Part shown: positions 2,694 to 64,000 of the stretch, piece by piece | How positions within the stretch are numbered: position 1 is the first letter of the stretch | How the letters are laid out: each line of letters starts with the position of its first letter | Translations under genes and position numbers: made by a program | Assembly (NCBI GenBank): GCA_026184295.1 | Contig: JAHCJK010000009.1 | Coordinates: 1-64,000 of the forward strand | DNA from: Planctomycetota bacterium | GTDB taxonomy: Bacteria > Planctomycetota > SZUA-567 > H5-PLA8 | Reading direction: 5' to 3' | DNA length: 64,000 nucleotides | Notes under the pieces: generated by a model | Database searches by the model: none | Told to the model about the DNA's origin: nothing | Seen by the model: the letters and a program-made list of their open reading frames with translations, nothing else

Positions 2694-4136
2694 TCAGGAG
2701 AGCGCGGGCGGCTTGCGCGCGATGAGGACCAGTTCGTCGCCGGGTTCCAGCGCCAGGGCGGATTCCGGATTGACGATGGTCTCGCAGCGGAGGTCTTCCT
2801 TGCGGCGCCCGTCGGTCTTGCGTTCGAGCGCGACGAGCATGGCGTTGTGTTCGTCCTTCAGGCGCCGCGAGGCCTCGCCGCACGAGCGCCCCGCCCAGTT
2901 GTCGGGCAGCGGGACCTTGTAGAGGTTGTTTCCGACGTTGACGTCGAGCAGTTCGGTGATGACGCCGATGAGCCCGCGGTTGCGCACCGAGGTGGCGATC
3001 AGCGAGCCGCTCACTTCGTCGTCGATGACCACGTTTTCCACGCCCGCGGACTGAAGCTGGACGTTGTTGCGCCGGTCGAGCAGTTGCGCGCAGGTGAAGA
3101 CCTTCGGGTTCAGCTTCTCGATGGTGAGCGCCGCGAGCACCGTGCGGGCGTCGCGGTCCTGGTCGCTGCGCGGCTTGCACTTGTCGGCGAGCAGGATCGC
3201 GTGGCTGGCATGGCGGATGCCGGCGCGTTCGAGAACGTCCATGTTGGTGTAGTCGCCCTTGTGGAAGAAGACGCGGGTGCGGTCCACCTTGCCGAGTTCC
3301 TGCTCGGGCAGTTCCTCGAATTCCGCGATGACGACGACCTCCTGCCCGCGCCCGCCGCGGTCGGTCTGGAGTTCCTGCAGGATCAGGTGGGCGGCGCGGT
3401 TCCAGCCGCACATGACGATGTGGCCGCGCAATTCGTCCAGTTCCACGTCGGTCACCTCCAACCCGGATTTCAGCCGCTGGATCATCACGGCGCTCATGAC
3501 GCCGGTAAAGACCGCGACGGTCGCCAGCCCGCCCATCACCACGAAGGCCATGATCACCTTGCCGATCTCGGTCTTCGGTTCGCCCAACGTCGGCTGCAGC
3601 GAGACGAGCGTGAAGAAACTCCACCATAGCGCGTCGCCGAGCGACTTGAAATTGCCGTTCGGCAGGTCGCGTTCGAAGCTGTGGATCGCGATGCCGCCGA
3701 CCAGGATGACGATGCCGATCGTGAGAAAGATCATCAACTGCATGCCGAAGCCCGCGGCCAGCGTCGGCGACGAAGCCATCAGCCGCCGGTGGATCAGGAT
3801 GCCGACGCGGTGCAGCCGGATCAGCCGCACGATCCGCAGGAAACGCAGCGGGCGCATCAGCGGCAGCACGGCGACGATGTCCACCCAGTAGTTGCGGAAG
3901 AAGCGGTTCTTGCGCGGCGCGGTGTAAAAGCGCAGGAGCAGTTCGAACGCGAAGAGCCCCGTGATCACGTCGCCCGCGACGTGCAGGTACGTCGTGGCGC
4001 GGCCCGACGGATCGATGCCGATCTCGGCCACCAGCAGCGCGACCGAGACGCAGATCAGCCCGATGATGAGCAGATCGGTGCGCGGGTGGCGCATGATCCG
4101 GTCGATGCGTTCTTTCAGGTCCATGGAGGCGGCCAT
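2694..4136 (-). CDS. Voltage-gated-type ion channel with TrkA-N (RCK) domain
   Basis: The protein has a six-helix ion-channel part followed by a soluble nucleotide-binding tail, like ligand-gated potassium channels of the VIC superfamily. Transmembrane segments run from about residue 20 to 220 of the reading starting at 4136. A segment with Arg every third residue (LRFLRIVRLIRLHR) resembles an S4 voltage sensor. The tail starts at HIVMCGWNRAAH, a Rossmann-type beta-loop like that of RCK/TrkA-N domains, followed by a TrkA-C-like end. Where the selectivity filter TVGYG is expected, the sequence reads FTLVSLQPTLGEP, so ion selectivity is uncertain. Starts at 4178 or 4124 are also possible; none has a clear ribosome binding site. 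Confidence 0.8.
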   Translation of the reverse strand: MAASMDLKERIDRIMRHPRTDLLIIGLICVSVALLVAEIGIDPSGRATTYLHVAGDVITGLFAFELLLRFYTAPRKNRFFRNYWVDIVAVLPLMRPLRFLRIVRLIRLHRVGILIHRRLMASSPTLAAGFGMQLMIFLTIGIVILVGGIAIHSFERDLPNGNFKSLGDALWWSFFTLVSLQPTLGEPKTEIGKVIMAFVVMGGLATVAVFTGVMSAVMIQRLKSGLEVTDVELDELRGHIVMCGWNRAAHLILQELQTDRGGRGQEVVVIAEFEELPEQELGKVDRTRVFFHKGDYTNMDVLERAGIRHASHAILLADKCKPRSDQDRDARTVLAALTIEKLNPKVFTCAQLLDRRNNVQLQSAGVENVVIDDEVSGSLIATSVRNRGLIGVITELLDVNVGNNLYKVPLPDNWAGRSCGEASRRLKDEHNAMLVALERKTDGRRKEDLRCETIVNPESALALEPGDELVLIARKPPALS

Positions 4137-4254
4137 TCTCGCGCGGCGCGCCGCGCTGTCCAGCGACGCCGCCCGCACTGGCGGGGCGCGCGCCCTGACG
4201 TACGATCCACGCGTTCCTTACCGAAAACCCACGTCCCGCCTCTAGGATGCGCCC

Positions 4255-6156
4255 ATGCGCCCGCTCGCCCTCGATCTTCACGCCGCCCCCGAGGAACTCC
4301 GCGCCGGCCTGGCCGAACTCTCGGCCGAACGCCCCGCGCGTTTCAAGTCCGGCAAGAACTCGGTGCCCGTGCGCTTCGAAAAGATCGAGGCCGCGGGCGG
4401 TCGCTGCGCGGCCACCGGCGACGGTCAGGCGGTCGCCGTCCGGTACGCGCGGCGCACCGACGCCTTCCGCGCGCTCGGGCGGCTGCTGGGCATGGACGAT
4501 CCCGCCGCGGCGGCTTTCGACGAGACCGCGCGCTTCGACCTGCTCGGCGCGATGGTGGACGTCAGCCGCAACGGCGTCGCGCGCCCCGAGACCGTCCGGC
4601 TGCTGCTGCGCCGCTTCGCGCTGATGGGCCTCGACACGCTGATGCTCTACAGCGAGGACACGTACGAGGTGCCGGGCGAACCGTTCTTCGGATACCTGCG
4701 CGGGCGCTACACGCAGGAAGAACTGCGCGCGCTCGACGCGTACGCCGCGGACCTGGGCATCGAGATGTTCCCGTGCATCCAGACGCTCGGGCACCTGGAA
4801 CAGATTCTGCAGTGGCCCGCCTACATGCATCTCAAGGACGCCGGCGGCGTGCTGATCGCCGAGGAACCCGCGACCTACGCGCTGCTCGAAAAGATGATCC
4901 GCGCAGCCAGCGCGCCGTTCCGCAGCAAGCGCATCCACATCGGCATGGACGAGGCGCACTGGATCGGGACAGGCGCCTACAGGCAGAAATTCGGCGAGAA
5001 GGATCCCTTCGCGATCCTGAACGGGCACCTGAACCGCGTCCGCGAGATCTGCCACGGCCTGGGGCTGCGGCCGATGATCTGGAGCGACATGTATTTCCGG
5101 CTCGGGTCGAAGATCCACGACTATTACGACAAGGAATGGGAGATCTCGCCCGAGACCGTCGCGAACATTCCCAAAGACGTGCAGCTCGTCTACTGGGATT
5201 ACTACCATCTCGAGCAGCCGTTCTACGAGGAATGGATCGAGCGCCACCGCCGGCTGGGCAGCGAGCCCGTGATGGCCGGCGGGGTCTGGACCTGGAACCG
5301 CCTTTGGGCCGCGCTGCCCTTCAGCTTCGCCACCACCGAAGCCTGCCTGCGCGCGTGCAAGGCCAAGGGCCTGCGCGAGGCCTTCGCGACGATGTGGGGC
5401 GACGACGGCATGGAGTGCGACCTGCTCTCCGCGCTGCCGGGCGTGCAGTATTTCGCCGAACACGGCTACGCGGACGCCGTGGACCCCGCGCTCCTGCGCG
5501 CGAACTTTCGCGGCAGTTGCGGAGGCGACTTCGACGCATGGGTACGCGCGAGCGATCTCGACAGCGTCGCGGGCATCGCGCATCCCGAGCGCAACAGCAA
5601 CAACCTGAGCAAGCTGCTGCTCTGGGAGGACCCGTTCTACAGCCCGCTCGACCCGCACACCCGCGCCCTGCCGCTGAACGAGCACTACGCGAAGCTCGCG
5701 GAAGACCTGGCACGGGCCGCGAAGGCCAGGGACGGCGGCCCGTTCGCCGCGCGGTTGCATTACCCCGCGCAAGCCGCGCAGGTTCTGGCGCTCAAGGCCG
5801 GGCTGCGCGAGCGCATGCACGCGGCGGTCGCGGGGCAGGACCGCGCCCTGGCCGGCGCGCTGGCCAAGGAAGCCGCCGCGCTGCGCCGCGAGGTCGAGAA
5901 GCTCTGGAAGATCCACCGCGCGATGTGGCTCGCGACGTACAAGCCGTTCGGTTGGGAAGTGATCGAAGCGCGCTACGGCGGCCTGCGCGCGCGCCTGGAA
6001 ACGCTTGCCGAACGCCTGAAGGATTTCGCGGCGGGCAAGCTGCCCACGATCGAGGAACTCGCGGAGCCGCTCCTGCCGGTCTTCCCCTTCCCCGACCCGG
6101 CGCAGATTCCCAACATCAACCACGACCGGCTCAAGACGCCGAGCTGGATCAAGTAG
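4255..6156 (+). CDS. Glycoside hydrolase family 20-like beta-N-acetylhexosaminidase
   Basis: The 633-residue protein is likely an exo-acting N-acetylhexosaminidase. After a small N-terminal domain (1-90) comes a TIM-barrel region with GH20-like motifs: the LMLYSEDTYE strand near 130, PCIQTLGH near 174, and the paired acidic residues in HIGMDEAHW (Asp232, Glu233), which in GH20 are the substrate-assisted catalytic pair. Later motifs include MIWSDMYFR and GGVWTWNR. There is no signal peptide, so it is likely cytoplasmic. The next gene, 73 bp on, is murQ, which suggests joint use in muropeptide or chitobiose-type amino-sugar recycling. The family call is good; the exact substrate is inferred from context. 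Confidence 0.75.
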   Translation: MRPLALDLHAAPEELRAGLAELSAERPARFKSGKNSVPVRFEKIEAAGGRCAATGDGQAVAVRYARRTDAFRALGRLLGMDDPAAAAFDETARFDLLGAMVDVSRNGVARPETVRLLLRRFALMGLDTLMLYSEDTYEVPGEPFFGYLRGRYTQEELRALDAYAADLGIEMFPCIQTLGHLEQILQWPAYMHLKDAGGVLIAEEPATYALLEKMIRAASAPFRSKRIHIGMDEAHWIGTGAYRQKFGEKDPFAILNGHLNRVREICHGLGLRPMIWSDMYFRLGSKIHDYYDKEWEISPETVANIPKDVQLVYWDYYHLEQPFYEEWIERHRRLGSEPVMAGGVWTWNRLWAALPFSFATTEACLRACKAKGLREAFATMWGDDGMECDLLSALPGVQYFAEHGYADAVDPALLRANFRGSCGGDFDAWVRASDLDSVAGIAHPERNSNNLSKLLLWEDPFYSPLDPHTRALPLNEHYAKLAEDLARAAKARDGGPFAARLHYPAQAAQVLALKAGLRERMHAAVAGQDRALAGALAKEAAALRREVEKLWKIHRAMWLATYKPFGWEVIEARYGGLRARLETLAERLKDFAAGKLPTIEELAEPLLPVFPFPDPAQIPNINHDRLKTPSWIK

Positions 6157-12642: not shown

Positions 12643-12719
12643 CGGTCCACGAATACGCACGAATGAACACGAATCAGGCAAGCCGCCCCTTCGTGTTCCT
12701 TCGTGCCCTTCGTGGACCG
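12643..12719. repeat. Inverted repeat of CACGAA units, second copy
   Basis: Left arm CGGTCCACGAATACGCACGA and onward; right arm is the near reverse complement (CCTTCGTGCCCTTCGTGGACCG). Units of ten bases with CACGAA recur on both arms. It belongs to the same family as 11681-11758 and sits upstream of pirin. Confidence 0.7.
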
Positions 12720-12724
12720 TTCTT

Positions 12725-12850
12725 CAGTTCTGTCGTTCGCTGTTCTGCTGTTCTGCCGTTCTGCTGTTCGCTGTTCTGCTGTTCTGCTGTTCGCTGTTCG
12801 CTGTTCTGCCGTTCCCTGACCTCTGATCTCTGTCCCCTGTCCCCTGCCGT
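12725..12850. repeat. Low-complexity tandem repeats (GTTCTGCTGTTCGCT and CTGTCCCCTG units)
   Basis: About 90 bases made of permutations of GTTCTG, CTGTTC, GCTGTTCGCT and GCCGTTC run straight into a second unit set, CCTGACCTCTGATCTCTGTC then CCCTGTCCCCTG. They stop at the end of the DUF2961 gene. A similar CTGTCCCCTG block lies at 39930-39970, also just downstream of a minus-strand stop codon. Confidence 0.7.
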
Positions 12851-31414: not shown

Positions 31415-31558
31415 GGAAGGACTGGTTGACTGGTTCGCTGGTTGACTGGTTCGCTAGTTGACTGGTTGCCCGCCGTCTCCCGAACCAGAGAACCAATCAA
31501 CAAGCCAACCAGCTAACCAGCCAACCAGCTAACCAGTCAACTAGCCAACCAGTCAACC

Positions 31559-41256: not shown

Positions 41257-41331
41257 GCGGGTGTAGCTCAGTGGTAGAGCGCGACCTTGCCAAGGTCGAA
41301 GTCGAGGGTTCGAACCCCTTCACCCGCTCCA
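41257..41331 (+). tRNA. tRNA-Gly (anticodon GCC)
   Basis: Acceptor arms GCGGGTG / CACCCGC pair in full; D-arm GCTC..GAGC; anticodon arm CGACC-TTGCCAA-GGTCG with GCC in the loop; T-arm GAGGGTTCGAACCCC-type with TTCGAA. Discriminator T and an encoded CCA (41329-41331) complete it. It is the likely attachment site of the element that follows. Confidence 0.97.
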
Positions 41332-41402: not shown

Positions 41403-42770
41403 TCAGGCGTTTTTGGCCACATCTGACCCCACATCTCGCGGCTTTTCCGCTTCAACTGCAGTGGATTTGACGCGCCTACGAGCTAGATCGCGAGTGCCGC
41501 ACAGCACCTCCCACACAGCATGTGAGGACTCGTGGGGATCGACCAGATCCAAGTAGTGGCGCTCTTCCACGTCACGTCCGGCATGCCCGACTTGTACCCG
41601 CACGGAATCCGGACTCACCAGCCGACGCGCCCACGATATGTGAGTGATACGCAGACAGTACATATCCCGACCGATCAACCAGCGCTCCAAGCCCTGCTGC
41701 AACTTGCCGGCGATTCGGACAGTTGCGCGAGTCTGCGCCTCACGGGCTTCGATCTTCCTCTTGTCCTTCGGCGGGGTCCCGTCGAAGCCCCGCTTGCGAC
41801 CGGTGTAAAGCAAATGGCCAACTTCGATGGGTGATGTCCTTTCTGCATCAGCCTCGTCTTTTGGCCAATTCATCCTGACGAACGCAAGCACCATGCAGCG
41901 CTTGAAATCCGGGCCAAGATTTTCCCGAAACGGCTTGGAACCCCGATAGGAAGCGAAAAGGGGTTCTCCAGCGTCAGGATTTCCACGTTTGAGGAGGTAT
42001 GCCCTTAGGTCTTTGAAGAATGGGGCAGGAAGCGTAGATACCCCATTCCGTTTCTTACCGGTGCCAGGAGCAAGCTGAATCCGATCAGTCAATAGGTCCC
42101 CAACCTTGGCATCCAGGACAGCACCTGGCCGATTGCCAGTTAGCAAGATTGCTCGATAGATAATCTCAGACGGTAAGGGGCGGCTGAAAAACTCGTCGAG
42201 TTCAGCCGCTGCCGCCAGCACTTCACGGGCTTCCTCGGGCAGGAAAGCGCGGCGCCGCTTGCTGTATCCCTTCCACGGCAGGCGTTTCCATGCGCTCAAA
42301 GGATCGTATGGAATAAGCCCTGTCGAGGCCAGGAACCGCGTCAACTGCTTCAGTGGCGCCTGGAGGGAGAATACAGCGTAATGGTCGGAGATTGTGCCAT
42401 CCTGAACCAGCTTCATGCACTTGGCCGTCAGCACGCCGACATGCGCCAAGTCCGCACCCACCTGGATCTGCAGGTAGTTTAACCTGAGGAGGCGCTCCAG
42501 ATCGCTCTTTCGGCTATCCGAGGATATTGGAGCTTCCTTGAGGAATTTGGCGATCAATTCCTCGTATCCCATTTCCCAACCCAATTCCTGTGGTAGACCG
42601 ATTCGAACAGCCTCTCTCCTGTCTTGCCACTTTTTCAGCGCACGATCCGCCTCACGCTTCTCGCCGATCCAAATGCGCTTCCTGACGCGATGGCCGGTGA
42701 GAGGATCGGACACTCTGAATTCCCATCCGGATCGCCCATCTTTCTTGGAAGTAACGCGTTTTCCGCTCAT
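41403..42770 (-). CDS. Tyrosine site-specific integrase
   Basis: A 455-residue tyrosine recombinase that probably integrates and excises the element at tRNA-Gly. The catalytic part shows Arg in LLTGNRPGAVLDAKVGD, the RxxH-like box CLRITHISWARRL, the GH of VQVGHAGRD and the nucleophile Tyr in ERHYLDL. The N-terminal half (about 1-170) is a basic arm-binding and core-binding region. The RxxH box lacks the usual leading His, a mild deviation. The start follows the stop of the HTH gene by 4 bp, so the two are co-transcribed, as is common for int and xis. Confidence 0.9.
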   Translation of the reverse strand: MSGKRVTSKKDGRSGWEFRVSDPLTGHRVRKRIWIGEKREADRALKKWQDRREAVRIGLPQELGWEMGYEELIAKFLKEAPISSDSRKSDLERLLRLNYLQIQVGADLAHVGVLTAKCMKLVQDGTISDHYAVFSLQAPLKQLTRFLASTGLIPYDPLSAWKRLPWKGYSKRRRAFLPEEAREVLAAAAELDEFFSRPLPSEIIYRAILLTGNRPGAVLDAKVGDLLTDRIQLAPGTGKKRNGVSTLPAPFFKDLRAYLLKRGNPDAGEPLFASYRGSKPFRENLGPDFKRCMVLAFVRMNWPKDEADAERTSPIEVGHLLYTGRKRGFDGTPPKDKRKIEAREAQTRATVRIAGKLQQGLERWLIGRDMYCLRITHISWARRLVSPDSVRVQVGHAGRDVEERHYLDLVDPHESSHAVWEVLCGTRDLARRRVKSTAVEAEKPRDVGSDVAKNA

Positions 42771-42774
42771 TGGT

Positions 42775-43026
42775 TTACTCCATAATGCTCGGCCTCCTGG
42801 TTTCGTTGCGCTTCAAATACGCGTGGATCTCGGCCACGCGGACACGATGAATACGACCGATCCGGACCGCGGCCAGGTTGCCGCGCCAGATCTCACGCCG
42901 CACCGTGTTGACATGAACGCCGAGCAAGTCGGCGGCTTCTTGAAGACTCACGGCCAAAGCACTGGGCTTAGCCGGGTTCGAGCAAGGCGAATTCGCCTTG
43001 GCAGGTACTACGGGTTCCGTTTCCAC
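42775..43026 (-). CDS. HTH (excisionase/MerR-type) DNA-binding protein
   Basis: A short protein with one helix-turn-helix: SLQEAADLLGVHVNTVRREI then GNLAAVRIGRIHRVRVAEIHAYL, the typical layout of excisionase-type HTH proteins. The GTG at 43026 gives 83 residues and has AGGGGAT before it; a longer ATG start at 43116 is possible. It lies directly upstream of the integrase and probably controls excision or integrase expression. Confidence 0.75.
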   Translation of the reverse strand: METEPVVPAKANSPCSNPAKPSALAVSLQEAADLLGVHVNTVRREIWRGNLAAVRIGRIHRVRVAEIHAYLKRNETRRPSIME

Positions 43027-43397
43027 GGTTCCATCCCCTGACAGATGAGGACGACCGCAGGGGCGAAAGACAAGATGAGCCAGGCAGGCCAGACGAAATC
43101 CCTGGAGCGCCAGCATCAGTTCGGTGCAAGCGGCTACTACTTGGATTGGAGTCGGGGATAGCGACCGGCCGAGGCTGACGCGCTCGTTCTCGCGAATTAC
43201 CTGCGGCTAGATTCCTCGATGGTAAGTCGAGCGATGCGCTCGTGTGGCGCCTGGTCGCACAAGTCTTCTTACTACCCAACTGGCGAGAGTCAAGAGCCCA
43301 GGCAGGTTCCGGGGCAAATGCACCTGCGGTGAAATCAGTCCACATTGAGATTTTGTAACCATGTCCATGATCGCGGTCGTGTGTGCGCCATTCGCGA
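43027..43397. other. Region without a clear gene, promoter side of the HTH-integrase pair
   Basis: Several frames stay open here but none shows coding character, and their ends do not fit with the neighbours. It probably carries the minus-strand promoter for the HTH and integrase genes. The reading from 43078 (MSQAGQTKSLERQHQFG...) is too short and uncertain to call. Confidence 0.35.
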
Positions 43398-45964: not shown

Positions 45965-46765
45965 ATGCAACGTGAACACCTGAGGAACTTGACGGGGATA
46001 ACCACCGGGTACAACACGATCAATCGCGAGGAACGAAACCTTGCGGCGTTGCTATACGCAGCACTATTGAAATCCGGTAATCTGGCCGCCTTTCTATTAG
46101 AAGCCGAAAGCAGCCTTCCGGTCGTGGATGGCGAGATCGGCGTGTACTACGAATATGCGTTCCTGCGCGACCTGTGGAGCCGAAAGCTCCATGACAACGA
46201 AGGTAAACGAAATGCCGTCCTTCGCCTGCTACGCCCGTCGAATACCGCGACGCTGGAGCGTTGCTCGGTTGGCGAATTCAATGAACACTTCGGTGCCGTA
46301 CCGAAACCCTCTGAAGGCTATATCCAAAGCCCTGGAACCTGGAGCATCGGCCGGTTCACAGGAAAGGTGCCGGACAAAGAGGAGCTTCGACGGACCTGCA
46401 TATTCAAGTGGTCCTTCAATGCCAAACCAGACATCGTGATCCATACCTCACACGAAACAGCATTGGTGATCGAAGCCAAGTTGGAGTCCGGCGAAGGCTC
46501 TTATCCGAATTCCGCCAGTGAGATCGCTCTTTTCAAGGATCGTGGTCTGGAATTGGTCCGGCAGACTGAAGTGCAGAAATACCTAATGGAAGAACTGCTT
46601 GGTCTCCGTTGCGAATACCTGTTCCTCACTCAGGACGGTGAAACGGCACCAGACGGCTACAAGCCGATGTCCTGGACCAGGGCTTTTGGCGCAGTGGATA
46701 CTTCGGACACCTTACCGTTCGTGTCCGAATGGCTCAGACGTGTGAGTGGTCCAGGTGATAGCTAA
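45965..46765 (+). CDS. Putative PD-(D/E)XK nuclease-like protein
   Basis: A 266-residue protein whose centre has the pattern of a PD-(D/E)XK fold: KPDIVIHTSHETALVIEAKL, with Asp, then Glu-x-Lys (EAK) at the correct spacing. An N-terminal helical block and a C-terminal part follow. The ATG at 45965 has GAGGGAA a few bases before. Its stop codon overlaps that of the convergent WGR-ligase gene by two bases. It could be a restriction-like or repair nuclease; the fold is inferred from a short motif only. Confidence 0.5.
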   Translation: MQREHLRNLTGITTGYNTINREERNLAALLYAALLKSGNLAAFLLEAESSLPVVDGEIGVYYEYAFLRDLWSRKLHDNEGKRNAVLRLLRPSNTATLERCSVGEFNEHFGAVPKPSEGYIQSPGTWSIGRFTGKVPDKEELRRTCIFKWSFNAKPDIVIHTSHETALVIEAKLESGEGSYPNSASEIALFKDRGLELVRQTEVQKYLMEELLGLRCEYLFLTQDGETAPDGYKPMSWTRAFGAVDTSDTLPFVSEWLRRVSGPGDS

Positions 46766-47853
46766 CCCTCTTCCTCTGCATCTTCCTTACGAAACTTCAA
46801 CTGCGAGAGCTTGCATTCTGCCGTAAGGATATCGGTCCTGCGGCCAAGGTACACTGGTTGGTAAAGTGAGCCGCCATTGTACGCGTATAGGTAACGCACT
46901 TCTAACACTTGACCCTGCTGGGGGATTGCAGCATTCGGCGGGATCGTGACGTTGCCGACGGATACGAGCTTGAGCCCGTCCAGCACTTCCAGACCGACAC
47001 TGCGCTTCCCATTGCGGCTCGGCGCGACAATGCAGGAAGCCGTCGCGTAAAACTTCAGCTTCACCTGAGGCCCACCGCTGGCCGGCCGCCCCGGAGTGTA
47101 CGGTGCGTTGCGATTCTTCAGGACGACGCCCTCGGCCTTCCGTTCACATAGGAACCGAAGCAGATCGCGTTTGTCCCCAGTCTCCGCCGCCGTGGGCAGG
47201 ACCTCGATGGCTCCCCTGCGCCCGCCTACCAGTTCAAGCAGGATGCGCCAACGGTCCCGGTAGGCCAGCTTTTCCAGGGGCGAGTTGCCTCGCCGCAGAC
47301 AGTCAAAGGCATGTAGCCGGTCGCCTACGGCTTCGCCGTCGATCACGCAGTCCGAACGCAGCGCCTGTGCGGCCTGGACAATGGACTCCGGCAGGCCAAC
47401 CGTCAGCCCGCGCCGGTTAATTCCTGTGACCTCATCGCCGACTTTCCGGACTAGGGTGCGGCGCCCGTCCATCTTCTCCTGGAGCCAGTAAGCGTCGTCC
47501 CGGAGGTAGCGCTCGGCCTCTTCTTCGGTAATCGGGTTCAAGAGTTGGGGCCGCAGTCCCGAATCCTGCTCGGCCTTCTCGGTGCCCGAGCACGGCGTTC
47601 CGTCCGGCCCTTCGCTGTATCCTTTGGCAGTCTTCGACCGGATCAACGCGTCGTAGATCTTCTTGGCCTGCTCGAAGGACACCGGCGTGTTCGTTTTCGT
47701 GCCGGTCTGGAGCGTGCTGCCGCGCCGTCCGAAGGCGAAGTTCACGACGAACCCGCCTTCGCGTTCCTCGATGGCCAAATGGTAAACCTTGTCGCTGTTC
47801 CCCTCTTTGAAATAGAGGGTGGTGCTTTCTCTCGGCATGGATGTTCCTTTCAT
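46762..47853 (-). CDS. WGR-domain ATP-dependent DNA ligase
   Basis: A 363-residue fusion. Residues 10-80 form a WGR domain (LYFKEGNSDKVYHLAIEE, then FAFGRRGSTLQTGT), a DNA-end-sensing fold known from PARPs and some bacterial proteins. The rest is an ATP-dependent ligase: nucleotidyl Lys127 in LQEKMDGRRT (KxDGxR), motif III VIDGEAVG, motif IV AEGVVLKN and motif V VKLKFY, ending in an OB-fold-like region. It joins DNA nicks, perhaps in the element's replication or repair. Starts at 47853 and 47838 both have good ribosome binding sites (AGGGAG and AAAGGA). Confidence 0.88.
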   Translation of the reverse strand: MKGTSMPRESTTLYFKEGNSDKVYHLAIEEREGGFVVNFAFGRRGSTLQTGTKTNTPVSFEQAKKIYDALIRSKTAKGYSEGPDGTPCSGTEKAEQDSGLRPQLLNPITEEEAERYLRDDAYWLQEKMDGRRTLVRKVGDEVTGINRRGLTVGLPESIVQAAQALRSDCVIDGEAVGDRLHAFDCLRRGNSPLEKLAYRDRWRILLELVGGRRGAIEVLPTAAETGDKRDLLRFLCERKAEGVVLKNRNAPYTPGRPASGGPQVKLKFYATASCIVAPSRNGKRSVGLEVLDGLKLVSVGNVTIPPNAAIPQQGQVLEVRYLYAYNGGSLYQPVYLGRRTDILTAECKLSQLKFRKEDAEEEG

Positions 47854-48030
47854 GTGAACTCCCTTAGGGAATGTGGATGCGGAAAGCTGAAGTGTGCGCG
47901 GATAAATGAGAATCCGCTCGCCGCAGAGCATCTTCACCGGCCCGGAACCGGTGTAGCCCTGCGCTCCCGTACCGGTGGTACGAGTTGTGATGCCTTCAGG
48001 CTTGCGAGCAGATCTCAAGATCTGGAAGGA

Positions 48031-49765: not shown

Positions 49766-50608
49766 TCACCGTCCTTGGCACGCGGTGCGGAACGGGCAAG
49801 CCGTACACCACCAGCCGTCCCGGGCCGGAAACACTCCGGCCCGGATGCCTTTCCAGACCTCGCCGACCTGCTCACGGAGCCGCAGCACGTCGGCTTGGGT
49901 CGCCTGCGGTTCCAGGACATGGACCACCGGCGTCTTGGCCTTCGTGACCACCACGAACCGGGGCCTGATCCGTTTCGCACCGACCTCGCGCAGGAGTGGC
50001 ATCAGCGCGTGGGCGTAGACGACCAGTTGCGGTAGCGCCTCGGCCACCTTCTGCTCGTTCCAGCGAGATTTGCTGGTCTTGATCTCGCTGACGATCAAGT
50101 CCGCGCCGTCCAGTTCCAGCAAGTCGAGCCGCGCCTCGACCGGAGGCGTGTCTGGCAGGAGCCGGAATCGATCTTCGTGTTCCAGGGCCAGGATGCGCCG
50201 ATGCGGCGCAGCCCGGACTTCCGCTTCGAGATGCTGCGTGAACGCGGACAGCATCCGCTCGGCCAGGCCATGCAGGCTGGCGGCATCGTCGCCCTTGGCG
50301 AACACGATCTCGGCCGCTTCCGCCGATTCTTCCTGCCAGGCACGGTCGTACTCGGCCAGCAGTTCGGCCAAGGCCGGGAACGGCCGACCTTCCAGGCGCG
50401 CCTGGAGCGCCACTTCGGCGGCACGGTGGAACGCGCCACCGAAAAGGAGCGCGGCGGACTTGCGCTCTTCCGGCGTGTCGGTCAAGTAGCGGTAGTTGAA
50501 CTTCTTAGGGCATTGCAGATACGTCGTGACGCCCGACCACGAAAGGTGGTCGAGCAAGCCTGCCTCCGTCTCAACAGACGGAGGCGCGGCTGCCGCATGG
50601 TTCGGCAT
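49766..50608 (-). CDS. Cas4/RecB-family nuclease with Fe-S cysteines (PD-(D/E)XK)
   Basis: A 280-residue nuclease like Cas4 and the AddB C-terminal domain. In order: Cys in YLQCPKKFNYRY, His in GAFHRAAEVA, Asp in VEARLDLLEL, the Glu-x-Lys pair in VSEIKTSKSRW, and the Cys triplet in WWCTACPFRTACQG. The four Cys match the Fe-S cluster of this group and the D-ExK set the nuclease site. AAGGAG precedes the ATG. No cas gene or CRISPR array is in the window, so it more likely serves the element's DNA processing or exonuclease function. Confidence 0.87.
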   Translation of the reverse strand: MPNHAAAAPPSVETEAGLLDHLSWSGVTTYLQCPKKFNYRYLTDTPEERKSAALLFGGAFHRAAEVALQARLEGRPFPALAELLAEYDRAWQEESAEAAEIVFAKGDDAASLHGLAERMLSAFTQHLEAEVRAAPHRRILALEHEDRFRLLPDTPPVEARLDLLELDGADLIVSEIKTSKSRWNEQKVAEALPQLVVYAHALMPLLREVGAKRIRPRFVVVTKAKTPVVHVLEPQATQADVLRLREQVGEVWKGIRAGVFPARDGWWCTACPFRTACQGR

Positions 50609-52929: not shown

Positions 52930-54516
52930 ATGCCTGAATTGCCCATGACCATCGCCGACACCTGCGCTCTGCTGCGGCGCGAGATGATCGACCGGATCGT
53001 CGGCAGCCTGCAGATCATTGGGGGTACCGATATCAGATGCACGGCTACCGATCTCAGCGAGCAGACGCAGCAGCGCGTCCTGGAACTCGGTTTCGGGGCG
53101 TTCGCGACGGAGCTGGTCAAGCGGCTGTTCCGGCCCAGCTGGCGGCTGGAGCCTTACGGCTTGGTCGCGGTCCCGAAGAGCAAGGGCGGCCACCGGTTCC
53201 TGACGCCGCCCGTTGACATAGACCGTCTCTGGCAGTGGGCGCTCTACGACATCCACTATCCCAGGATCAAGCCTTACCTGAGTCCATGCAGTTATGGGTT
53301 CGTGCGTGGCCGCTCCAATCAAGGAGCCGTTCGGGCGCTTGAAGATGCGATCCGAGCCAGACCGGACGGCGTGCTCATGCTTGCCGACGTTGCGCGGTGC
53401 TTCGCCAGCCTGCCCGTGGCCGGCCTGCTGAAGTGCTTATGGCCGGTCGTCAACGATCCTATGGCGATGTTCTTGATCGAGGCCGCGTTCCGGACCAGGC
53501 CGAGCCATGCCAGGATCAATCAGGTGCGGCGCGAGTTTCTCCGGGCTGGCACTGCAACGTTGGCCGACCTGAGGTACCTGAAGGCCCTGAAGCAGACGCG
53601 GCTCGGCATACCGGAAGGCTCCGCGCTCTCGGCCATCGCGTGCGTGCTTTATCTGCGGCCCTTGGTGGACTCGCTAGTCGCAGCGCTGCCGGGTGCCACC
53701 GTGATCCACTACGGCGATAACCTCGCTCTTTGGCTCAGGCCCGGCCAGGAGCGCATCGCCGAATCCGTACTGAAGTCCAAGTCGAAATCGTTGGGATTCG
53801 AGACCGAGACCGAGTCCGTGGTCGTGCCGCCATGCCATGACACCGCCGAGTTCCTGGGGATCGTGTTCGAATGGTCGAACTCGGAGATCCGGCTGAGTGC
53901 GCCGGACCGAGCCGTGGTTCGTATAGCCGACACCGTAAGGCGAATGCCCGAAGCTGTGGAGAAGGAAACCTTAGGACCGAAGTCGAACCGTAGGCAGCCG
54001 AAACCGATCCGGAACGTGCTCGACGGGATCGTCAGATTCGTATGGCCCGTGCTCAGCTACTACAGAGACACCGATATAGGACCGCTTCGCCAAGCGCTGT
54101 GGGACGCCATGGCCGGTTGGGTGGAATCGGACCGATATGCGGCACTGGGTAGGGTAGCTAGAGGTTGGATCGAGAGTCAAGGCCGATGGGACCGTTATGT
54201 CGATAGGAACGCGCTCGAAACCGATGTTCGAGAGTGGGAGGGCCGAATACCGGTAGAGCTGGGTGAGCCGTGGTCGATAGGGACAGTCGAGAAACGTGGT
54301 CGAGGCGAGGACATGATCGTGGAAATGCTGACTGGGCATTACGGGCAAGAAGGGGCCCGGCCAGCGCAGGGGTGGAGAGCCCATAGCTACCTCTGGGATG
54401 GTAGGTGCAATGAAGGGGGTGGCAGTTGCGCGCTGCTGAGGCAGGCGCCTGGCTCGCGTCCGCTCGCCGCGCCTGCCTCCAGCGCAACCGGGGGAAGGGC
54501 CAGTGGTTCAGTGTAG
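52930..54516 (+). CDS. Reverse transcriptase of an uncharacterised group, with YGDN instead of YxDD
   Basis: A 528-residue RT. Motifs in order: LVAVPKSKGGHRFLTPPVDI (79-98), SYGFVRGRSNQGAVRAL (121-137), the first catalytic Asp153 in LMLADVARCFASL, GIPEGSALSAIACVLYLRPLVD (226-247), YGDNLALW (261-268), LGFETETE and AEFLGIVFEW. Asp263 is kept but the second Asp of YxDD is Asn264. The C-terminal part (about 330-528) is an unknown domain, not a group II intron maturase or HNH domain. The TAG stop is in a hairpin loop. Some RNA viruses use GDN in an active polymerase, so activity is possible. It is not a typical retron or DGR type. Confidence 0.88.
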   Translation: MPELPMTIADTCALLRREMIDRIVGSLQIIGGTDIRCTATDLSEQTQQRVLELGFGAFATELVKRLFRPSWRLEPYGLVAVPKSKGGHRFLTPPVDIDRLWQWALYDIHYPRIKPYLSPCSYGFVRGRSNQGAVRALEDAIRARPDGVLMLADVARCFASLPVAGLLKCLWPVVNDPMAMFLIEAAFRTRPSHARINQVRREFLRAGTATLADLRYLKALKQTRLGIPEGSALSAIACVLYLRPLVDSLVAALPGATVIHYGDNLALWLRPGQERIAESVLKSKSKSLGFETETESVVVPPCHDTAEFLGIVFEWSNSEIRLSAPDRAVVRIADTVRRMPEAVEKETLGPKSNRRQPKPIRNVLDGIVRFVWPVLSYYRDTDIGPLRQALWDAMAGWVESDRYAALGRVARGWIESQGRWDRYVDRNALETDVREWEGRIPVELGEPWSIGTVEKRGRGEDMIVEMLTGHYGQEGARPAQGWRAHSYLWDGRCNEGGGSCALLRQAPGSRPLAAPASSATGGRASGSV

Positions 54517-61350: not shown

Positions 61351-61719
61351 ATGCAGGACATCATCACCCGTTTGCGCGCATCGAAACAGGAAAACGACAT
61401 GAAGAAGCGCGAAGGATCCCGCCAGGACGGGCGCGTGTGGGCGGAACAGGATGCGGAGCACGCTGAGTTGGAGGCGCTTGCCGCAGCATTTTCCGATCCG
61501 GAGAACCGCTTCGAGGACAACGACCACACCGCGTACTCGGCGGGCGAGCGCTTCTTCTTCGCGATCTGCCCCGACCAGGATGGGGATCGCGAGGCCGCGA
61601 ATTGCTTCTGGGAAAGCCAGATCCCCGACGCCCAGCACCTGGCGGACAATGCGGCATGGGTGAACGGCTTCATCGACGGTGCGCTGGAAGTGTGGGAGGA
61701 GGTGAAGGATCTCGTCTAG
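61351..61719 (+). CDS. Small acidic hypothetical protein
   Basis: A 122-residue acidic protein with a helical start (MQDIITRLRASKQENDMKK), a central FFFAICPDQDGDREAANCFW and a helical end (GFIDGALEVWEEVKDL). No known motif. It is followed by 151 bases of leader before the MCM-like helicase gene. Confidence 0.5.
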   Translation: MQDIITRLRASKQENDMKKREGSRQDGRVWAEQDAEHAELEALAAAFSDPENRFEDNDHTAYSAGERFFFAICPDQDGDREAANCFWESQIPDAQHLADNAAWVNGFIDGALEVWEEVKDLV

Positions 61720-61870: not shown

Positions 61871-63790
61871 ATGAGAGCACAAATGCTATCGAAAGCCGAA
61901 GTCCTTGCGCGCCTTCGCGACCTCGCCCACTGGCAGGAAGACGCCAGACGGGAGATGTCGAGGAAAGGCGCTTCCGCAGATGATCTGGCTCGGCACGCAG
62001 ATCTCTGCGAGAGGGTGAGAGCGCGGGCTATGCTGCTGCTCTCGGGTGGCGAGGCGGAAATTGTTTCGACGCGGGTCGAGACCGCTAAGTCCACCGAAAA
62101 CTTGGCGCGGGTTGTTCGGTTCCGTGGGTATTTCAAGACGTACTCCGGAACCAAAATCCGCCCCAGAGACGAACACGAGGGGCGGGATCTGCTGAGCCTC
62201 CTCGACGTGCCCATCGATTCCACGGACGATCCGGCCGAGGCGTATGAGTCGTTCGGAGCGTTCGTGTTTGGTGAGGCCGACTCCGAGCGGCACACTATCG
62301 AGACGATCCCGACCAGCGATCCGGACATGCTGCGACGTTTCCAGCGGTCGGAGGCAACGGTCGTCTATGCGGTGACCGGTATCCCGCTGCCGTCGCTGCT
62401 CGATAATGAGTACCGTCTGTTTTTGCTGGACCTGAAGCGCATCGACACCGCGCTGGACTTGGTGGAGCCGATCCCGGGTGAACTGGAGGACGCCCGGCAA
62501 CTCATCGAGGTGCAGCGCGAACAGTCGGTGCTCCCGGCCCTGGTCAACATGGTGTGCGTAGCGCTGGGCATCATCGATACTGGCGATCCACAGTATCGCG
62601 AGGCGCTAGAGGTCGCCGTCCTGCAGGGCGCCAGCCACGGCAGGATAAACGGCGAGAGCGGACGTATCCATACGCTGCGGATCGGACCGCCGGGCTGCGG
62701 CAAGGGCCTGATCGCACGGGCCTTTCAGTTGTGCCAGCCCATCCATAAGCGCGTCGAGGCGCAGTGCGTGACCGAGGACGGGTTGTACGGAAACTCCGGT
62801 TACAGCGGTGGCAAGCGTGTCGTGCGGGCAGGATTGATTCCTGCCGCGAATCTCGGCGGGTTCTACGTCGAGGATGTTCATCAGGCGAACCATGTGAAAA
62901 ATAATCGCCTGATGATCACGTTTGGAAGCACCATGGAACTTGGGCGGTGTGACGCGGCCAACGCGAGTCGCACCTCTTACGAGGCGCTCGTGGCGTTCAA
63001 CGTTGATGCCAATCGGCGTAGCGATGTCGAGGGGCATCGGCACCGGAACGGAAAGTTGAAGGGGCTGGAGCGGATCTCGGCGGACACGGGTGTTCCCAAA
63101 AACATCCTGACGCGGTTCGACTCCATCATCGAGTTCCATCGCGATTCGAAACAGCAGTTGGAACTCTCCCTCAGGCTGGCTCGACGGCCGGAAACGCAGG
63201 CCGATTCCAAACAGGGTCAGGAACCGGGCAGGTTGGTGCGCGTGGTTCTGGCATACCTGCGCTCGACGGTCCCCAACGTCGAGATCGGGCCGGATGCGGC
63301 GCAGTACCTGGAGGCGCGGTACCGCAGTATCGTCAATGCCCGCGCATCCGTGATGCAGGAACATCCGGACTACGCGGATTTTCTGGCGAGGGGCAGCAAG
63401 TCTTACAAAAAACTCGCCATGGCCCACGCCCGGCTCTGCAATCGGGACTACGTGACCCCGGCCGACATCGATGCGGTATTCGTCCATGTCGCCAGGAAAT
63501 TCGAGACGCTCTTGACCTGGCTGGTCGGGGATCTCGATGACGAACTGGATCAGAACGCGAGGAAGAAGGCGCGGATGCAGCTCATCCGCAGCAGCTTCGC
63601 CGGGGAACGGGTCACCCTTGGGGAGCTACACCGCCTGATCCCTGGTGCCTCCGACAAGAGCATCAAACGCTATATGGAGGAGGTCTGTGGCGGAGCCCGG
63701 AACCCGGACGGTTCCTGGACGGTTCCGGAGTACGAAAACCTGCCGCAATTGCCGGGCATCTGCCCGGATAGCGACGGCAATCCGCAGTAG
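61871..63790 (+). CDS. MCM-like AAA+ replicative helicase
   Basis: A 639-residue protein resembling archaeal and eukaryotic MCM helicases. The AAA+ core has Walker A GPPGCGKG (272-279), a Walker B-like GGFYVEDVHQAN (329-340, with Glu-Asp), an extended block after it (AFNVDANRRSD), and the MCM-like VPKNILTRFDSIIEF (408-422) with Arg415 in the arginine-finger position. The C-terminal part has YVTPADIDAVFVHVAR and a winged-helix-like end (VTLGELHRLIPGASDKSIKR). The N-terminal domain is divergent. It probably unwinds DNA for the element's replication. The start is 61871 or 61883. Confidence 0.7.
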   Translation: MRAQMLSKAEVLARLRDLAHWQEDARREMSRKGASADDLARHADLCERVRARAMLLLSGGEAEIVSTRVETAKSTENLARVVRFRGYFKTYSGTKIRPRDEHEGRDLLSLLDVPIDSTDDPAEAYESFGAFVFGEADSERHTIETIPTSDPDMLRRFQRSEATVVYAVTGIPLPSLLDNEYRLFLLDLKRIDTALDLVEPIPGELEDARQLIEVQREQSVLPALVNMVCVALGIIDTGDPQYREALEVAVLQGASHGRINGESGRIHTLRIGPPGCGKGLIARAFQLCQPIHKRVEAQCVTEDGLYGNSGYSGGKRVVRAGLIPAANLGGFYVEDVHQANHVKNNRLMITFGSTMELGRCDAANASRTSYEALVAFNVDANRRSDVEGHRHRNGKLKGLERISADTGVPKNILTRFDSIIEFHRDSKQQLELSLRLARRPETQADSKQGQEPGRLVRVVLAYLRSTVPNVEIGPDAAQYLEARYRSIVNARASVMQEHPDYADFLARGSKSYKKLAMAHARLCNRDYVTPADIDAVFVHVARKFETLLTWLVGDLDDELDQNARKKARMQLIRSSFAGERVTLGELHRLIPGASDKSIKRYMEEVCGGARNPDGSWTVPEYENLPQLPGICPDSDGNPQ

Positions 63791-63796
63791 AGGAGG

Positions 63797-63948
63797 TGGT
63801 GGACAAGAGGCTGGACAACCATGTGGTCAGCCGGGTGGACACCGGGCTCGACAACAGGTCGGACATGCCGGACTCAGCCGAAGGGCGTGGGGCTGTGTAA
63901 TGGCTGTCCGGTCTGTTGTCCGCCTGGTTGTCCATCCAGATGTCCACC
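63797..63948. repeat. Phased GGACA boxes in two opposed blocks, candidate origin iterons
   Basis: Six 12-base units begin at 63801, 63813, 63825 (GGTCA), 63837, 63849 (CGACA) and 63861. After a gap of 39 bases, four reversed boxes (TGTCC) begin at 63905, 63917, 63929 and 63941, again exactly 12 apart. The outer arms also pair: GTGGTGGACA and CTGGACAACC with GGTTGTCCAT and TGTCCACCAC. It lies directly after the MCM-like gene and before the next gene, as expected of an iteron origin or an operator array. Function is not proven. Confidence 0.55.
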
Positions 63949-63992
63949 ACATCCGATTCGTCCAGCCTACGTTAGAAAAGGAGACCCAAACG

Positions 63993-64000
63993 ATGGTCAA
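63993..64000 (+). CDS. Start of a gene cut by the window edge
   Basis: An ATG at 63993 with AAAAGGAGA nine bases upstream begins a reading that continues past the edge. The same frame is open back to an ATG at 63900, through the reversed GGACA boxes, but the ribosome binding site favours 63993. Only a few bases are visible. Confidence 0.45.

Follow-up and report, generated by a model that had tools for sequence, protein, structure and literature searches.

The box array and the gene before it

Ten short boxes in two opposed blocks lie directly after a gene for an MCM-like helicase in the stretch of planctomycete DNA analysed here (the window), which takes up positions 1-64000 of a contig 65,472 bp long. 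As judged from sequence comparison, this array is probably where replication of a mobile element starts, with the MCM-like helicase as the element's own initiator. Coordinates are given in Table 1. The box is defined as the 7-mer GGACAAC, with up to two mismatches allowed, and the first box is met 10 bp past the stop codon of the helicase gene. Every step within a block is 12 bp, in both blocks, and the 5-mer GGACA is altered in two of the forward boxes, to GGTCA and CGACA.

Could such order be expected of the base composition? With GGACA and up to one mismatch, the forward run of six and the reverse run of four were both reached in none of 5000 dinucleotide shuffles. Even when any 5-mer word was allowed a summed run of 10 occurred in none of 300 shuffles, for which the maximum was 5, and in a scan of the whole 64 kb with a step of 40 a sum of at least 7 was reached at the array alone (three overlapping positions). 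The initial annotation, which described ten boxes in 12-bp phase, six forward with two altered and four reverse, is thus borne out by the box scan and the shuffles; so is its placing of them in a short gap after a replicative helicase gene, that gene being MCM-like by fold.

The array is present in a single copy in its genome. Taken together with the boxes of a related locus, L004, considered below, there are 21 boxes, in which the core YGGACAAC (columns -1 to +6) holds 0.7-2.0 bits and the flanking columns 0.06-0.36 bits, i.e., the spacers are not conserved. As a DNA query the array found no match among plasmids or phages, and no publication on it or on opposed GGACAAC boxes was found in the open-licence literature, which is not proof of absence. 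A cluster of DnaA boxes was considered and rejected: TTGTCCACA, the consensus of the high-GC DnaA box, is present exactly in one of the 21 boxes and with up to one mismatch in three, and in that comparison the columns upstream of the boxes hold 0.14-0.25 bits.

An MCM-like helicase with a predicted winged helix

In a Pfam scan the helicase matched MCM/AAA-type models only, the MCM model at E 2.9e-4, which is under the gathering score, and there was no match to DUF927, D5/Primase_Cterm or a primase domain. When a profile of five homologues was compared with PDB sequences MCM chains were found, the best being MCM9 (E 2.2e-16), and with an AlphaFold model (mean predicted local distance difference test score, pLDDT, 68) the top 50 Foldseek rows against the PDB were all MCM. 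VIA alignment of that model with human MCM5 (7pfo_5) gave a Z of 28.6 and a root-mean-square deviation of 5.2 with 368 residues aligned; the rows of such alignments involve mainly residues 52-555, the protein ends being covered by a separate C-terminal model alone. By its predicted fold, then, the helicase is MCM-like. The Foldseek matches of the C-terminal domain are mostly winged helices (Z-alpha, TtgV, YodB and BirA) and are weak, the best having E 0.08, probability 0.96 and a TM score of about 0.55. No separate loader (ORC/Cdc6) was seen beside the MCM-like gene; the 122-residue open reading frame upstream of it is possibly a partner of the helicase in the same operon.

Relatives among the Planctomycetota

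An MCM-like gene was found in five of 392 Planctomycetota genomes and, within the family, in three of seven: the window's own, G005 (51% identity) and G004 (28%). The one close relative found, L004, is JANXLS010000711.1 of a Planctomycetota metagenome-assembled genome (G005) from the same family and another genus, and its helicase has 51% protein identity to that of the window. Directly after its helicase gene there is also an opposed array, with five forward and six reverse boxes, all steps being 12 bp except for one of 11 bp. With a pattern drawn from the window and L004 loci themselves, a scan of the 392 genomes recovered opposed boxes in two, which were those same loci with one place each; a three-box pattern gave 29 matches, mostly coding or simple repeats. 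A search of genome contigs with the single helicase protein retrieved no relatives, nor did searches of viral contigs or tblastn against plasmids and phages, and an alignment of two sequences recovered JANXLS010000711.1 alone from the genome contigs. In a phrog_10371 search, for which 19 matches are listed, the 3′ sides were checked for the window gene and for L226, L227, L229 and L242-L245, with 11 short matches (L230-L240) left out. Opposed boxes lie 3′ of three of the nine planctomycete MCM-like genes checked.

The opposed blocks as a hairpin

As the two blocks face each other the whole array is an imperfect inverted repeat, and the long hairpin that it can form is an addition to what had been noted at first. 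Against shuffled sequences RNA folding has a z of -6.8 for the window and -7.6 for L004, and DNA folding of L004 a z of -5.7. Folding better than shuffles is what opposed boxes alone would produce, and a control was therefore included in which the boxes were kept and the spacers and loop shuffled. The window still stood out (z -5.0, matched by none of 500 shuffles) and L004 marginally so (z -2.0, 18 of 500 shuffles as good). In both, forward and reverse boxes are matched successively outward from the loop, F6-R1, F5-R2, F4-R3 and F1-R4 in the window and F5-R1 to F1-R5 in L004, and the spacers are partly paired in both loci with different sequences in each. Conserved boxes with free spacers that nevertheless pair across the arms lead to the view that the array is also a long hairpin, though two loci cannot prove spacer covariation, and the spacer pairing may alternatively have been left by an old inverted duplication. 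The hairpin could either contribute to the mechanism or simply result from two rows of iterons facing each other.

This pairing, with different spacer sequences matched in each locus, is also what makes it worth asking whether a hairpin of RNA or single-stranded DNA is itself the working form. A stem of about 150 nt at the end of the helicase operon transcript would protect, process or regulate the mRNA, and the 12-bp boxes would be a by-product of stem growth. A pure stem, however, does not require conserved box words in 12-bp phase with free spacers. Moreover, the minus strand folds almost as well as the plus strand, no Rfam family was met at gathering score in the 5.5-kb stretch examined (L002), and no T-run terminator follows the array. 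A role for the hairpin of this kind is rather unlikely.

Comparison with known origins

Is the arrangement a familiar one? The published accounts are drawn on here in excerpt. For Staphylococcus aureus pathogenicity islands (SaPI) and other phage-inducible chromosomal islands (PICI), the excerpts give the order int, xis, AAA+ helicase-initiator, iterons and then interference genes (PMC6092414, PMC7581432), with PICI origins described as always having two iteron sets that flank an AT-rich region, 3′ of rep (PMC6092414). SaPI Rep uses its C-terminal domain to read iterons that lie immediately downstream of the gene encoding it, and that of Cch2, from the staphylococcal cassette chromosome (SCC), binds direct repeats in the same position (PMC7581432). 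In the putative element of the window the order appears similar, with an integrase-like gene, an excisionase-family gene, the helicase gene, boxes and then an HmaA-type defence helicase, and both in the window and in L004 the boxes are immediately 3′ of the helicase gene in two sets, 6 + 4 and 5 + 6, respectively. Yet the window helicase has an MCM fold with no match to DUF927, D5 or a primase, there is no AT-rich region between its sets, the boxes form a long imperfect inverted repeat, and the host is a planctomycete. Because of the misfit of initiator family and AT-rich region, the array is not classed as a SaPI/PICI origin, although it would work in a similar way. Cch and Cch2 of SCCmec are self-loading helicases functionally related to MCM, with Cch2 having its repeats downstream of the gene (PMC7581432). 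However, Cch2 is described as having three iterons, AAGTG, within a single region of direct repeats, in contrast to the 10-11 boxes in two opposed rows of the window and L004, and no sequence relation was found between the window helicase and SCCmec Cch/Cch2.

The hairpin has its own counterpart. Origins of the type of pRN1 (Sulfolobus plasmids and phage BIP-1) have a long stem-loop just 3′ of the replication gene; that of pRN1 depends on a stem-loop of 100 nt on the 3′ side of rep whose structure is conserved while its sequence drifts, and the replication protein ends in a winged helix, as is predicted for the window helicase (PMC4234260). pRN1 has no iterons and its protein is a PrimPol with an SF3 helicase, unlike the stem of phased boxes and the MCM-like helicase here. 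The predicted fold of the window protein is shared with MCM helicases of archaea and eukaryotes; MCM in those cells relies on ORC/Cdc6 as separate loaders, whereas none was seen in the window element. MCM-like helicases have been reported on bacterial mobile elements (PMC5862659), and in yeast two opposed ORC sites are reported to give two facing MCM rings (PMC12440816).

Opposed boxes after other helicase genes

With the same box word, two scans of IMG/VR for the opposed pattern gave 6 and 10 stretches that make up 13 distinct loci, and with the word written backwards as a control no stretch came up (gaps of 70-100 only). Five of the 13 sit right at the 3′ end of a gene for a phage helicase. 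The genes before the boxes are VapE-like in L177, L179, L181 and L186 and PriCT_2/AAA_25 in L188. In L180 the opposed boxes are 1.4 kb after a VapE gene, and L176 and L178 are near SNF2-type helicase genes with no helicase gene identified before the boxes; five of the 13 do not fit the layout. On one prophage contig, IMGVR_UViG_3300001598_000117 (L016, L178/L187), there are two such arrays of opposed GGGACAA boxes apart from each other, L178 and L187.

A test free of any particular word involved seven annotated phages (L210-L216) picked from 1044 with a VapE relative. In all seven the VapE-type helicase gene is followed by a gap of 164-357 nt with no annotated gene, and in five of them the gap has opposed boxes in more copies than elsewhere in the fetched locus, each with a word of its own (GGTAAC, GGGACA, TTGTAT, CGTCCC and CTGCAA). 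These gaps after VapE-type helicase genes are likely origins. Gaps after VapE-type genes in tailed phages share with the window the opposed boxes 3′ of a helicase, and some such gaps the word GGGACAA, but the VapE phages carry an unrelated AAA+ domain (PF05272), their spacing is not strictly 12 bp and VRR-NUC and SNF2 helicase genes are downstream of the gaps. Among the Planctomycetota, a gene in G197 encodes a fusion of a DnaG-type zinc ribbon with MCM, and after it come opposed TGTGTATA boxes, which none of 2000 shuffles at k=8 reproduced; the locus is a candidate for a second MCM origin with another box word.

A pattern of four GGACAA boxes gave at least 120 stretches in IMG/VR, of which 11 were read closely; coding repeats (GGQ, KD and similar) predominate among the matches listed. 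In phage initiator-like genes (L029:481-648, L081:8743-8817, L016:7979-8020 and L052:8720-8770) GGACAA boxes with 12-bp steps are in frame and code for MDN, VDN or WDN, and they are possibly in-gene iterons.

A probable origin with its own putative initiator

What argues for an origin is the recurrence of the same opposed array after a gene of 51% identity, together with the MCM fold and a layout that matches published origins, and it is by these comparisons that the initial reading of the boxes as origin iterons continues to be the best one. The MCM-like protein encoded just upstream would be the element's own initiator, and its C-terminal winged helix may read the GGACAAC boxes. The opposed rows of four to six boxes would then collect helicase subunits as two facing sets, probably two hexamers to go by the row sizes and SaPI Rep, and the helicase would open the DNA and start forks. 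The inverted repeat may let the DNA extrude as a hairpin, and since there is no AT-rich stretch such extrusion may help melting.

Several features weigh against this. The inter-block G+C is 0.66 in the window and 0.60 in L004, as against 0.62 in the gene, so there is no AT-rich melting region. The Walker A motif of the helicase is unusual at its last position, GPPGCGKG in the window and GPPGSRKG in L004; the canonical GK[ST] is absent from these and from L005 (GAPGLGKG) but present in L007 and L008 (GPPGVGKS), and helicase activity is consequently not assured. No primase was found beside the helicase gene. It had been proposed at the outset to look for the same array beside MCM-like genes in related elements, and while this succeeded for L004 it failed for the distant homologues in G004, G272 and G304 (28-37% identity), which have no array and in part bear out the objection foreseen in the initial annotation. 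Including these, six of the nine planctomycete MCM-like genes have none on the 3′ side (the others being G000:C330, G001 and G066). A GGACAAC array after this gene family was seen at two loci only. Two of the seven phages, both of Bacteroides, have no opposed boxes in the gap. The right end of the element was not found (the contig ends at 65472), nor was a convincing second attachment copy. Finally, the same genome has dispersed hairpins of opposed octamers with no link to a helicase, and opposed repeats alone therefore do not indicate an origin.

A bolder proposal, tentative and with the balance rather against it, is of a loader-free MCM origin on a bacterial mobile element, in which one MCM protein does the jobs of ORC/Cdc6 and MCM, each row of about six boxes seating one hexamer by way of its own winged helices to give two facing rings at a hairpin-forming origin, and in which the rule of opposed boxes holds across unrelated helicase families with the word being replaced along with the helicase. 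If true, a bacterium would have a compact MCM origin run by one protein, and with it there would be a system for asking how an MCM ring finds and opens DNA without separate loaders. Origins of mobile elements could then be found as opposed short boxes of any word 3′ of a helicase gene, a search rule that may extend beyond one family given the phage gaps (five of seven) and the MCM gene of G197.

Other explanations of the boxes

Plasmid centromeres typically have short iterons, some direct and some inverted. The array could be a centromere (parS/parC-like) or some other array to which a protein for partition or maintenance of the element binds, and in the distant homologues L007 and L008 the gene that follows the MCM-like one resembled ParB by eye. 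A Pfam scan up to E 1 gave no match for those reading frames, however, and both loci have no array; the 209-residue frame of the window has no Pfam or PHROG match either, and in L004 the neighbouring frame is convergent. The chance of a centromere is correspondingly slim. An alternative use as operator sites for the gene downstream is suggested by the short distance, about 47 bp, from the end of the window array to the point where the 209-residue frame starts. It is very unlikely, for in L004 the next long frame (L004:2-634) faces the helicase gene and the array is between converging genes.

Might the array be a dispersed intergenic hairpin of the host, comparable to repetitive extragenic palindromes, that is beside the helicase by chance? 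This genome has such a family: at window 31420-31558 opposed tandem octamers, GACTGGTT and AACCAGCC, form a hairpin (z -8.0) with 73 BLAST matches across the genome. The GGACAAC array, in contrast, occurs once in the genome and follows a homologous gene at the same position in another genus, and the idea, which retains a barely appreciable chance, was rejected. Least credible is that the 12-bp step reflects coding, be it for a short repetitive protein (VDKRLDNHVVSR...) or for a longer helicase, and this too was rejected: there is a 34-residue frame from a GTG at 63796 with an AGGAGG resembling a ribosome-binding site, and phage initiator-like genes (L016, L029 and L081) do have in-frame MDN/VDN repeats of 12 nt, but the boxes carry on in the opposite direction, the L004 frame crosses the boxes with no stop codon at the corresponding position, and the residues common to the window and L004 are box-encoded only, in keeping with the preference for DNA or RNA over peptide expressed initially.

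The putative integrative element

The left end of the putative element may be at a tRNA-Gly gene. The gene beside this tRNA may encode a tyrosine recombinase, to judge from a motif invariant in five homologues; it had no match in Pfam (E up to 0.01), PHROGs, NCBIfam or PDB sequences. Beyond the array, and past the 209-residue frame, begins an HmaA-type SNF2 defence helicase (L002:4810-5472; contig 64810-65472). Over 220 residues it shares 95% identity with a G004 copy, itself beside an MCM-like gene of only 28% identity to that of the window, which suggests that cargo may be exchanged between related elements.

Table 1. Positions of the array, the helicase gene and associated features (window coordinates unless stated)
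Feature	Position	Strand	Details
Forward block	63801..63867	+	six 7-bp boxes at 63801, 63813, 63825, 63837, 63849 and 63861; 12-bp steps
Inter-block region / hairpin loop region	63868..63902	.	35 bp, 66% G+C
Reverse block	63903..63945	-	four boxes at 63903, 63915, 63927 and 63939; 12-bp steps
Whole array, imperfect inverted repeat	63792..63954	.	50-nt arms, 63792-63841 and 63905-63954, 74% complementary
MCM-like AAA+ helicase gene, putative self-loading initiator	61871..63790	+	639 aa; profile and predicted fold
C-terminal winged-helix-like domain, candidate box reader	63527..63727	+	about residues 553-619; separate model, pLDDT 81
Open reading frame upstream of helicase gene	61351..61719	+	122 aa; no family match at E 0.01
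Open reading frame after array	63993..64000 in window, ends at contig position 64622	+	209 aa; no Pfam or PHROG match
tRNA-Gly	41257..41331	+	possible integration site at left end of element
Integrase-like gene beside tRNA-Gly	41403..42770	-	invariant R...THxxxA...GH...Y pattern in five homologues
Excisionase-family helix-turn-helix gene	42775..43116	-	TIGR01764 E 2.8e-10, HTH_17 E 1.6e-11
G197 fusion gene	L242 (G197:C25:47500-55500), gene 2832-5753	-	TGTGTATA boxes in a 31% G+C stretch

Within the putative element there are also a WGR-domain DNA ligase (window 46762-48018), a PD-(D/E)XK nuclease that is exonuclease/Cas4-like (49766-50608) and a reverse transcriptase gene (52930-54516; RVT_1 E 3.3e-7; reverse transcriptase by PADLOC, with weaker UG17 and Cas1-RT), which is followed by a 557-residue open reading frame with no Pfam match. 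Elsewhere in the window, at 12717-12814, are tandem units of the GTTCTGCT type, about 8 bp each, near the end, at 12666, of a plus-strand frame and before a minus-strand frame at 12850.
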